This document shows positions 25,056 through 57,527 of a stretch of 64,000 bases of DNA, one piece after another (within the stretch, counting starts at the first letter, position 1; the number at the start of each line of letters is the position of its first letter). Under the pieces are notes generated by a model that was not told the DNA's origin, searched no databases, and saw only the letters and a program-made list of their open reading frames with translations. Location of the stretch: NCBI GenBank assembly GCA_003597955.1, contig QZJU01000020.1, forward strand, positions 1 to 64,000. The letters run 5' to 3'. Position numbers and translations under genes: made by a program. The stretch is from Candidatus Parcubacteria bacterium. Its GTDB lineage: Bacteria > Patescibacteriota > Patescibacteriia > PEXW01.

Positions 25056-25162
25056 ACCCCGAACCACTTTCCAAATAAAACCTTAAGTTTAGTGTAAGGT
25101 TATTTGCCTAATGAACATCTTGGTACTAAGTGTTGGCGTTTTGCTGGAAAGTGGTGCGGGGT
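25056..25162 (+). repeat. ~107 bp terminal-inverted-repeat element, copy 2
   Basis: It begins ACCCCGAACCACTTTCC and ends GGAAAGTGGTGCGGGGT. It aligns along its whole length with 35749-35855 in the same orientation (shared interior TAAGTGTTGGCGTTTTGC). Confidence 0.85.
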
Positions 25163-35748: not shown

Positions 35749-35855
35749 ACCCCGCACCACTTTCCAAAATAAACTTTAAGTTTTTTGTAAGGCTATTTAC
35801 CTAATAAACATATTAGTGATAAGTGTTGGCGTTTTGCTGGAAAGTGGTGCGGGGT
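35749..35855 (+). repeat. ~107 bp terminal-inverted-repeat element, copy 3
   Basis: It runs from ACCCCGCACCACTTTCC to GGAAAGTGGTGCGGGGT with an AT-rich interior matching copy 2. Its right end abuts the -35 box TTGACA of the next + strand gene. Confidence 0.88.
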
Positions 35856-36695: not shown

Positions 36696-37321
36696 TTTAA
36701 CATCTTATAAACAATGGTGTTTAAATATTGATATGGAGCCCTTGAAAATTTTTCATTTAAATCAGTTGCCAGTGGGTTATTTTGAACATATTTAATGGCC
36801 ATTTTCACAGATTCATCAGAATTTAAGATTTTAGCGTGAAATCGCGCTTGCCATGAAAAATTATCTATTTTATAAATAACCCTTAATTGTCTCACAAAAT
36901 AGGATTTAATGCCGTGCATCAGGTCAGAAATTGTAAAAACCTTCGAGTTTATTAAATTGTCTAACCTGCTCTTCTGGAACCCAGCGCGGGCGGCTCTGCC
37001 CGCGCCTGGATGCAACAAAATTTTTCCAATCGCAGGCACAGCGGCCTGCGCTCGAGACAAATTAATATTTGATAATTTCGTGGCCGCCCGCGCTGGGTTA
37101 GTTTTTAATGATCTTAGATCTTGCCAAACAATCAAATGAACATGATCCGGCATTATGCAATAAGCAATTAACAAGAATCCTTTTTTCATGCTAGTGCCAA
37201 TAATAATTTTGCTCAATAAATCCGCATATTTATCATGAATAAAAAACGCTTTATCGCCTTTAATATTTGTGGTGATAAAGTAAGGAAATTCTCCCTGGTG
37301 GATTCGCCGTTGAGTCATCAA
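36692..37321 (-). CDS. REP-associated tyrosine transposase (RAYT/Y1 family)
   Basis: RAYTs are single-strand HUH-type transposases linked to REP palindromes. The HUH pair is in YCIMPDHVHLIVW and the catalytic Tyr in AIKYVQNNPL. The opening GEFPYFITTNIKGDKAFF is also typical. Between residues ~74 and ~115 the protein has an insertion rich in Ala, Arg and Gly that is encoded by a GC-rich palindrome (36978-37099). The frame stays open across it. Whether the protein remains active is uncertain, as the insert lies between the HUH motif and the Tyr helix. Confidence 0.88.
   Translation of the reverse strand: MMTQRRIHQGEFPYFITTNIKGDKAFFIHDKYADLLSKIIIGTSMKKGFLLIAYCIMPDHVHLIVWQDLRSLKTNPARAATKLSNINLSRAQAAVPAIGKILLHPGAGRAARAGFQKSRLDNLINSKVFTISDLMHGIKSYFVRQLRVIYKIDNFSWQARFHAKILNSDESVKMAIKYVQNNPLATDLNEKFSRAPYQYLNTIVYKMLK
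36978..37099. repeat. Palindromic insertion inside the RAYT reading frame
   Basis: 17 bp perfect inverted ends (AACCCAGCGCGGGCGGC and its complement) enclose 88 bp that hold two further hairpins: GCGCGGGC/GCCCGCGC (36985-37006) and CGCAGGC/GCCTGCG (around 37032-37052). The unit resembles a REP/BIME-type element. Confidence 0.85.
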
Positions 37322-38741: not shown

Positions 38742-38760
38742 AAAACTAAAGAACGCTTTA

Positions 38761-38834
38761 TGCGGGCAGGTGGAATTGCACCACCGACGTTCGGGTTAAT
38801 AATCCCCGACATTCTACTCCTGAGTTATACCCGC
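38761..38834 (-). tRNA. Aberrant tRNA-like gene with a 9-nt anticodon loop
   Basis: Read on -, 74 nt fold as a cloverleaf: acceptor GCGGGTA with TGCCCGC, D arm ACTC-AGGAGTA-GAAT (one mismatch), anticodon stem TCGGG/CCCGA, and T arm GGTGG-TGCAATT-CCACC, then discriminator A without CCA. The anticodon loop is GATTATTAA (9 nt rather than 7), so the anticodon cannot be assigned (TAT, ATT and TTA are readable). Position 55 of the T loop is G. It resembles a tRNA-Gly in its acceptor and D arm. It may be functional and unusual, or degenerate. Confidence 0.45.
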
Positions 38835-38843
38835 AATTTTTAT

Positions 38844-39009
38844 AGCCCCGGGCTGGATTTGTCCCGCCATAGAGGCGGGATGCCGCCGACTTTTGTTGAC
38901 TTCAATAGATGGCGGCAAACCAGCAACCTTCGGTAAATTCCTGCACATGCCCATTAATACTGAGGCTCCCTGCCTGTCGCCAGGCAGGTACCGACTAAGC
39001 TACCGGGGT
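38844..39009 (-). tRNA. tRNA-like sequence interrupted by hairpins in its loops
   Basis: Read on -, the parts of a tRNA appear in order: acceptor ACCCCGG, TA, D arm GCTTAGTCGGTA...GAGC, anticodon stem TCAGT...ACCGA, variable AGGTT, T arm GCTGGTT...CAAATCCAGC, acceptor CCGGGGC. Extra segments split the D loop (20 nt, perfect hairpin CCTGCCTG-GCGA-CAGGCAGG), the anticodon loop (about 17 nt) and the T loop (56 nt, two perfect 7-bp hairpins). Removing them leaves 73 nt, a normal tRNA length. The first pair would be A-C. No anticodon can be assigned. It could be a tRNA with loop insertions or a pseudogene. Confidence 0.4.
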
Positions 39010-39064: not shown

Positions 39065-40258
39065 CTAAATCAACTTGATGGTATTGCTAAAAGTGCCGTG
39101 CGCTTTTTGGATGTCAAAAATCTCCAAACAAATGATCACCTGACGCAGGCCCGCAGTAATCACGATTTTGTCGAAGTCCCGCATCTGGGAGGTGTCCCAG
39201 CTGTTCAAAATGGCGATATTGATTTCCAGCCTGCTTATGGTTTCTGAAAAATCAAAATCGGTTTTGGGAAAGCGCCTTTTTCGGCTGACCGCGAACATCA
39301 GCTTTTCTAGTTCAATGCGCAAATCCCGCAATTGAAAACCGGCGTAAGTGGTTTTTAGAAGCGCATGCGCTTCGGCCACCTTGTTGGTTTTCAAAAACTC
39401 TGCCGCGTGTTTGAATTCGTCCGTCGAATACAAAAATGTCGGGCGGAAAGGCTGAATATCAATGCCTTCAAAAACTCGCGCGTAAATTTCCAGCTGCTCC
39501 GCGACTCGAATACGGCGCAGAATCGAAACTTCATGCCAGTTGTCCAAAACTTGCTTCAAGTAATCCGCCGCGGCTTTGACTTGGAATTCTAAAATTTCTA
39601 AACACATTGAAACCACTCGTCGGCGCAAGGCCCAAACCGCATTTATGTCAACAGCATCAGCTTCCCGACGCATAGTTCTTTCTCTAATCGCCACCAGCCG
39701 TGCCAGCAAAGCCCCGTTGTTCACCCGCCCCAGACTGTCTTCGATATTACCGATGGCGGTAAACTGATTAAGAATTTCTTTTTTTAAACTATTGGTCGCG
39801 TTTGGGTTCACGTCCAATATAGCCTTTTCCACCATGCCCACGATGATCACGATTAATTCATCGACATTTCCTTTTCGCAAGCCTAAAAGCACGCCGTTTA
39901 AACGATGGCAGACTTCCAATACCTGGTTCAATCTGGGAATCTCGCCGCTTTCCTCCTGAAGGTAAAAGCTGTCGCCATGTTTTAGGGCCCGATTTAAAAA
40001 ATACAAATCAGCAAAAACAATGTAACGCAAAACTTTTGCCACTCGCTTGCGATTGAAAAATCTCAAGTCTTTTTCAGTTGGTACATTTGACCAGCGCGGC
40101 ACGGCTAAGCACCCCAACAGTCGTCTTTCCGGCGCCTGGGTTATGACATAAATTCGACTTTTAAATAATGCCCGTGCCCTGACTGAATAGCAGACATCCC
40201 CTTCCCAAACGGCTAGATCTTCTTCTTGACTTCCACCAATTTTTTCCAAAACTGGCAT
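39065..40258 (-). CDS. Large helical protein of unknown function
   Basis: I do not recognise this 397 aa protein. It is soluble, mostly helical and rich in Arg, Leu and Glu, with no signal peptide or membrane segment. The last ~120 residues could form a separate helical bundle (TDEFKHAAEFLKTNKVAEAH onward). There are no cysteine clusters or nucleotide-binding loops. GGAGGT stands 4-5 nt upstream of the ATG at 40258. It stands alone on its transcript between the tRNA-like sequences and the cupin gene. Confidence 0.7.
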   Translation of the reverse strand: MPVLEKIGGSQEEDLAVWEGDVCYSVRARALFKSRIYVITQAPERRLLGCLAVPRWSNVPTEKDLRFFNRKRVAKVLRYIVFADLYFLNRALKHGDSFYLQEESGEIPRLNQVLEVCHRLNGVLLGLRKGNVDELIVIIVGMVEKAILDVNPNATNSLKKEILNQFTAIGNIEDSLGRVNNGALLARLVAIRERTMRREADAVDINAVWALRRRVVSMCLEILEFQVKAAADYLKQVLDNWHEVSILRRIRVAEQLEIYARVFEGIDIQPFRPTFLYSTDEFKHAAEFLKTNKVAEAHALLKTTYAGFQLRDLRIELEKLMFAVSRKRRFPKTDFDFSETISRLEINIAILNSWDTSQMRDFDKIVITAGLRQVIICLEIFDIQKAHGTFSNTIKLI

Positions 40259-55879: not shown

Positions 55880-55976
55880 AGTTGAGAATTGAACATTGGT
55901 TCCCCGCACCAGAACGAAGTTCGGTGCGGGGCAAGCTTGAATCTCTTGATCTATTGATTCTTGAGTTAGTTTTTTG

Positions 55977-57120: not shown

Positions 57121-57527
57121 GGGGATGTTCATAAGTTGATAGTTTGCTTTGACAATTAGCCTGCGGACCGCCTTTTTCGGGAATGGCGTAAAACTTTCTG
57201 AAAATTAGACAAATGCCAATTCATTTGTCAGCAAAGTGAAGACTGCATTGGCCAAAACCTTTGCCGTCCCAGCTTTCGCTCCGGTTGTTGCTTAAAAACC
57301 AATAACCCATTCGCCCCGCAGCCTGATGCGGGATTCGCGAGTGTTAAATTTCAGGCTGGATATTTTTCACCGCGCGCTGAAAAATATTGAGAAACTTGCG
57401 CGCTTTGGCGTTTTGCGATCTTGGTTGTTCCCTGCGCAAAATGTCGAAAACCCTTGAACAACCTATGTCCGAAGAAAGTTAATTGCCGGTAAACTAGACA
57501 GGGGTGCAAGACCCCTCATCTCCACCA
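57121..57527 (+). ncRNA. ssrA: Transfer-messenger RNA (tmRNA)
   Basis: The tRNA-like ends pair: GGGGATG (57121-57127) with CATCTCC (57517-57523), followed by A and an encoded CCA. The T arm is AGGGG-TGCAAGA-CCCCT with G at position 55 of the loop. A tag frame fits from GCC at 57215 to TAA at 57293-57295: 26 residues starting ANSFVSKV and ending FAPVVA. This is longer than the 10-11 residue tags of model bacteria; the resume codon is inferred. GC-rich pairing between 57310 and 57460 fits the usual pseudoknots. The gene lies next to smpB. Confidence 0.9.

Follow-up and report, generated by a model that had tools for sequence, protein, structure and literature searches.

Positions 38844 to 39009 of the window (the whole 64,000-nt stretch of DNA analysed, from a Candidatus Parcubacteria bacterium) hold a tRNA-like sequence whose loops contain perfect palindromes. 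It belongs to a pattern that recurs in many uncultured bacteria, in which redundant copies of a tRNA have REP-like palindromes in their loops, always at set positions. The window feature is probably a dead tRNA gene copy, not a live tRNA, and we lean toward the explanation that this dead or dying copy was entered, at the level of DNA, by palindromic elements of the REP/REPIN kind. Its parts, and two features close by, are:

38844 to 39009, minus strand: the whole tRNA-like sequence with its loop insertions, 166 nt (from sequence and fold)
39003 to 39009, minus strand: 5' strand of the acceptor stem, ACCCCGG, making six of seven pairs with 38845 to 38851
38969 to 38988, minus strand: D-loop palindrome, CCTGCCTG-GCGA-CAGGCAGG, flanked by GGTA and GAGC
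38925 to 38964, minus strand: anticodon arm and variable region, 40 nt where about 23 is usual, with the stem damaged
38918 to 38924, minus strand: 5' strand of the T stem, GCTGG, plus TT
38881 to 38917, minus strand: T-loop palindrome 1, TGCCGCC-23 nt-GGCGGCA, with a 7-bp stem
38862 to 38880, minus strand: T-loop palindrome 2, TCCCGCC-TCTAT-GGCGGGA
38852 to 38861, minus strand: remainder of the T loop, CAAAT, and 3' strand of the T stem, CCAGC
38760 to 38835, minus strand: a second tRNA-like gene without CCA, called as Ile(TAT) at low score
36692 to 37321, minus strand: Y1_Tnp (RAYT/IS200-like) transposase gene, 209 aa (Pfam PF01797, E 5e-10), the candidate mover

Read from 39009 down to 38844, the minus strand runs ACCCCGG, TA, GCTT, AGTCGGTA, the D-loop palindrome and GAGC, and then a 40-nt segment (CTCAG...GGTT), GCTGG, TT, the two T-loop palindromes, CAAAT, CCAGC, CCGGGGC and T. 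The acceptor stem has one mismatch (A1xC72) in its seven pairs, the D stem has four of four, one of them G-T, and the T stem five of five. The anticodon stem is damaged; no anticodon, and hence no amino acid, can be assigned. An earlier note had described this layout, and its coordinates, stems and hairpins prove correct: the perfect palindromes, one of 8 bp in the D loop and two of 7 bp flanked by TT and CAAAT in the T loop, are exact, about 17 extra nt do lie in the anticodon arm, and subtracting 20+17+56 nt from 166 does leave 73. Folded as RNA, the feature has a z-score of -4.3, and none of the shuffled sequences folds equally low. When non-overlapping, G+C-rich, perfect hairpins (stem at least 7, loop at most 24) are counted over the 64-kb window, three of the 25 fall within the 166 nt (Poisson P about 4e-5), a probability that is indicative only, the region having been singled out beforehand.

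The D-loop palindrome has relatives. Searching with the window region recovered its D-loop half, together with the palindrome, from other families, where the CCTGCCTG..CAGGCAGG palindrome occupies the same spot, GGTA^GAGC, in tRNA 5' copies. The exact arrangement GGTA-palindrome-GAGC occurs in eight of 285 genomes of the class, the source genome among them, and its reversed control in none. Most of the D-loop inserts examined are in tRNA head copies with a matching intact tRNA downstream (about seven cases: Lys, Thr, Asn, Phe, Met). The exceptions are the window feature and L006, which have no matching neighbor, and L079, which resembles a whole tRNA. At L009/L074 (G035:C17), one tRNA 5' end is present in adjoining copies whose D loops hold two distinct palindromes.

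The T loop receives a second family, a double palindrome (for example, TCCGCCAAAGGCGGATCCGCCTTTGGCGGA) made up of a unit followed by its inverse. When the genomes of about 85,000 species were scanned, it was found at TT^CRA in 28 places on 24 contigs, mostly of Patescibacteria and Omnitrophota, a count defined in part by the query, which built in the flanks GGTT and CRANTCC and part of the pairing of the two 6-bp hairpins between them. Full hairpin pairing and nearness to tRNAs were not built in; nor were the T stem, which has four or five of its five pairs in most of the 28 places, and the match to the tail of an upstream tRNA, which extends to 13-18 of 18 positions in 20 of them. The counts come from the stricter pattern only; a wider one gave non-tRNA matches and three control matches. 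A loose scan for any T arm with a hairpin insert was dropped, its matches being mostly due to chance. The stems of the double palindrome vary among genomes yet stay paired, which, as the query partly required pairing, is not independent evidence of compensatory change.

The window's own T-loop pair fits the doublet approximately. Palindrome 2 resembles its 15-nt units; palindrome 1, with a 23-nt loop, lies outside the strict 30-nt consensus and is tied to the family by its location and by two further copies, about 80% identical. The window pair is a longer variant of the doublet; those two copies, elsewhere in the source genome (80-82%), both lie between GTT and CAAGT, and both are near tRNA-Pro genes. 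Elsewhere in the window, at 55902-55931, a palindrome CCCCGCACC..GGTGCGGGG lies between GGTT and CAAG, outside any recognized tRNA.

Both families are dispersed. Sought without tRNA flanks, the double palindrome is present in 82 of 285 genomes and the single one in 34 of 144, with no reversed-control matches for either, in searches whose required flank letters sampled just part of the copies. Within the source genome, copy number is low. The window palindromes belong to, or resemble, dispersed families whose members occupy the same loop positions in several genomes. The earlier note's suggestion of palindromic elements in tRNA loops is borne out, at positions that recur in unrelated genomes; its further suggestion, that a working RNA tolerates them, is taken up below.

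The two families choose their targets differently. The single palindrome prefers hairpin loops: when the flanks of the CCTGCCTG family are joined, they form stems across the junction (mean 3.77 versus 3.05 +- 0.13; 0 of 2000 permutations), and for the double palindrome the excess of hairpin loops is not significant (reached in 150 of 2000 permutations), in both cases by controls that ignore relatedness and with many contexts from the same genomes. The double palindrome prefers TN^NA, most often in the form TT^CA, as present in T loops. Of 148 ends read inward, 83% have T at -2; the background is 31%. The TT^CA site is used in tRNA-Glu-like anticodon loops, too. A single rule, that palindromes enter hairpin loops, therefore had to be given up: it holds for the CCTGCCTG family, but for the double palindrome, whose guide is TT^CA, it falls short of significance. 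Nor was it borne out that T loops attract beyond their TT^CA; by a rough mental reckoning, the non-coding TTCA sites available would account for a similar share.

These are habits reminiscent of REPs and REPINs. REPINs are inverted REP doublets (PMC3116915), and REP dimers inserted within palindromes, as well as REP insertions in genes, have been described (PMC3733652). As in those systems, the palindromes here are short, G+C-rich and dispersed in multiple copies, apparently outside genes (class-wide, for both families), in genomes with Y1 transposase genes, and the double palindrome is an inverted doublet able to fold as one long hairpin or as two (PMC3116915; PMC3733652). The differences are the preference for TT^CA and the recurrence in tRNA loops, and that neither a GTAG/CGTC tag nor a linkage to a transposase is established here; the flanks of the double palindrome, judged by composition only, have T at -2 and no apparent tag.

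The transposase connection is loose. Three Y1_Tnp genes are present in the source genome, and no palindromes of either family flank any of them; the hairpins there are of other sequences. Because none of these elements flanks a Y1_Tnp gene of the source genome, we file the palindromes as REPIN-like, not as REPINs. Among the genomes compared, Y1_Tnp genes and palindromes are weakly associated (odds ratio 2.2, P 0.047), and in 13 genomes that carry the double palindrome no Y1_Tnp match was obtained. As we picture the process, the CCTGCCTG..CAGGCAGG family would enter the D loop at GGTA^GAGC, and the second family, of two adjacent palindromes, would enter the T loop at TT^CAA. Insertion might act on single-stranded DNA hairpins by way of a Y1/HUH transposase of the RAYT kind, a step that we infer rather than observe, because the association is weak and the genome's own Y1_Tnp genes lack flanking palindromes of the families. 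Hits in a sole tRNA gene would presumably be lethal, leaving insertions to be seen solely in redundant copies. The Y1_Tnp reading frame of the window itself contains two perfect G+C-rich hairpins (36984-37005 and 37031-37050), comparable to palindromes in protein-coding sequence.

Rickettsia palindromic elements differ in being best known from protein genes, in frame; and for the repetitive hairpin-forming elements of mitochondria we know of no transposase. So far as the available text of the sources goes, the former are likewise palindromes inserted inside genes (cited in PMC3733652), and the latter likewise come as single and double hairpins that are apparently mobile, with one copy inside an rnl gene, but they are organellar and no fixed tRNA loop position is mentioned for them (PMC2800124). 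A literature search combining Patescibacteria with repetitive extragenic palindromes, mostly among open-access papers, returned nothing. Insertion of REP-like elements, then, is already known; the targeting of tRNA loops, with polarized partial tRNA copies, was not found in the literature searched. The lineages are ones in which that literature does not describe REP-like palindromes, and here these come with a readable target rule. The sequence of a tRNA, moreover, is known beforehand, so that a site with an insert can be set against its vacant counterpart nucleotide by nucleotide. For REPs in ordinary intergenic DNA this is hard to do, and it makes the target choice and entry of REPINs directly testable. 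There is a practical side as well: the partial copies may be overlooked or wrongly labeled when tRNAs are annotated in these genomes.

One such comparison is at hand. The tRNA-Val gene at C6:83917-83993 and a copy at C6:84004-84100 agree over 49+21 nt at 100%, interrupted by a 30-nt insert at GGTT^CAAATCC, with nothing duplicated or lost at the junction. For this pair, insertion was clean and without target duplication; elsewhere, it may have been the same. The earlier note had proposed looking for a trimmed homologue of the window tRNA. None was found, and the note's own grounds for refutation apply in part, but because the exact empty and filled tRNA-Val pair exists in the same genome, the loop-insertion reading stands.

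Elsewhere, most inserts are found in a redundant partial copy, head or tail, with an intact tRNA next to it. In a set selected by palindrome and a 500-nt window, with frequencies and spacer lengths biased accordingly, all 22 rows with a matching tRNA have the T-loop insert in a tail copy, the intact tRNA standing upstream (two rows, L125 and L150, being the same locus). Homology mostly starts 3-7 nt before C56, in about a third of cases 12 nt or more, up to 49, and most of the 22 copies run to the tRNA 3' end or finish no more than about 2-3 nt away. Several continue past it, by 24, 34, 43 and 60 nt, two of them in tandem repeats. Among the tRNA loci of the source genome, which were not so selected, exact tail copies number three and lie downstream in each case, and the single head copy lies upstream; in two of the three tails (Val, T loop; Tyr, anticodon loop) a palindrome is present at the interrupted loop. 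Intact tRNA-Ala, tRNA-Trp and tRNA-Tyr genes each apparently lie nested within an older, split copy of the same tRNA, in its anticodon loop (L057:1366-1568, L058 (C10:24906-25150) and L049:1447-1695, respectively). The window feature differs from most loop-insert copies found elsewhere in being a whole tRNA with both types of insert.

REP/REPIN-like insertion into redundant tRNA copies explains the presence and dispersal of the palindromes as well as their TT^CA rule. Simple REP insertion does not predict copies that start near the loop and stop near the tRNA 3' end; these could be relics of integration or products of template switching. A bolder generalization, which we offer tentatively and with more doubt than conviction, is that Patescibacteria and Omnitrophota harbor tiny palindromic mobile elements for which tRNA loops are landing sites and whose insertion is coupled to the making of a partial tRNA copy, a head for the D loop and a tail for the T loop, with the host tRNA left intact: a miniature counterpart of tRNA-targeted integration.

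Might the copies be relics of attachment sites? Small or decayed integrative elements would have used a tyrosine recombinase in the T or anticodon loop, restored the tRNA and left behind a tail copy (attR), with the palindromes belonging to the attachment arm. The extent of most of the 22 tails, from around the T loop to the tRNA 3' end or some 2-3 nt short of it and always downstream, is what this leads one to expect, and tandem 68-bp units in one genome resemble accretion. Partial tRNA copies beside the complete gene of the same tRNA are, besides, a well-known outcome of integration (PMC9897764). We nevertheless consider the idea unlikely. The supposed elements span just about 56-300 bp (in spacers biased by the 500-nt search window), whereas kilobases of DNA separate integration copies, about 9-23 kb in the archaeal cases, and the available text of that source mentions no palindromes at the junction (PMC9897764). 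The same palindromes are dispersed far from tRNAs, the D-loop cases are head copies located upstream, and several copies overrun the tRNA end. Partial copies beside an intact copy of the same tRNA do occur at other loci; comparison of the window feature with its neighbors revealed no intact relative beside it, the adjacent tRNA being unrelated (7 of 18 positions match).

Template switching at tRNA hairpins during replication, which would yield partial duplications and palindromes together and need no transposase, strikes us as less likely again. Heads, tails and the tRNA-in-tRNA nests (Ala, Trp, Tyr) do resemble repeated local duplication, and the weak Y1_Tnp association is in keeping with it, but the palindromes have family-specific sequences, a target motif and genome-wide dispersal, all of which count against it.

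That the window feature is a working structured RNA, or a tRNA from whose transcript the inserts are removed, is very improbable. Three of its four stems are intact, its fold is very stable, and some tRNA genes of the source genome appear, by eye, to bear introns. Yet neither ARAGORN nor Rfam calls the feature; at low threshold, Rfam gives weak, unrelated matches only. Removing the D- and T-loop inserts does not bring about a tRNA call. Trimming a further 12-19 nt from the anticodon region does so in 101 of 132 variants, which, the trimming having been free, is consistency rather than proof. The feature lacks CCA, although the genome encodes it in nearly all the other tRNAs that ARAGORN calls, and the called set appears near-complete without it (tRNA-Trp and an interrupted tRNA-Thr having been read by eye). 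No Rfam intron match was obtained, and the main inserts are in the D and T loops rather than in the anticodon loop, where a group I or bulge-helix-bulge intron would be sought; we know of no splicing system for such inserts. A search upstream turned up no promoter-like match, itself weak evidence. A genome of the same genus has the same neighbors at that place and neither the window feature nor the Ile(TAT)-like gene. The missing CCA, damaged anticodon arm, A1xC72 mismatch and absence from the same-genus genome also weigh against the earlier note's two proposals for the RNA, as does the finding that inserts elsewhere are mostly in tRNA fragments that could not function: tolerance of the inserts, and their excision from the transcript, for which no support emerged. 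The window copy, we infer, makes no working tRNA.

Chance hairpins in a decaying pseudogene are scarcely credible: the feature is a degraded tRNA, but its hairpins are perfect and their loop positions recur from genome to genome, with reversed-pattern controls at zero, which contradicts the idea.

The source genome is about 0.99 Mb in 21 contigs. Within the window, the feature is situated between an ORF that ends at 39065 and the weak tRNA at 38760-38835, with a synthetase gene downstream that we take, from its sequence, to be glycyl-tRNA synthetase. Phage records contain no match to the region. Two tRNA-Thr-like genes, at L056 (C19:49000-49270) and L058 (C10 near 25468), have an anticodon loop apparently interrupted by about 200 nt; by eye, we presume these interruptions to resemble a group I intron. 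In several tRNA genes of L055 and L057, the complementarity of leader and trailer continues, by eye, some 10 bp past the acceptor stem. The window also contains a 107-nt direct repeat (25056-25162 and 35749-35855, 88% identity) and, at 57121-57527, a rather diverged tmRNA adjoining an ORF that is presumably smpB-like, to judge by its sequence.
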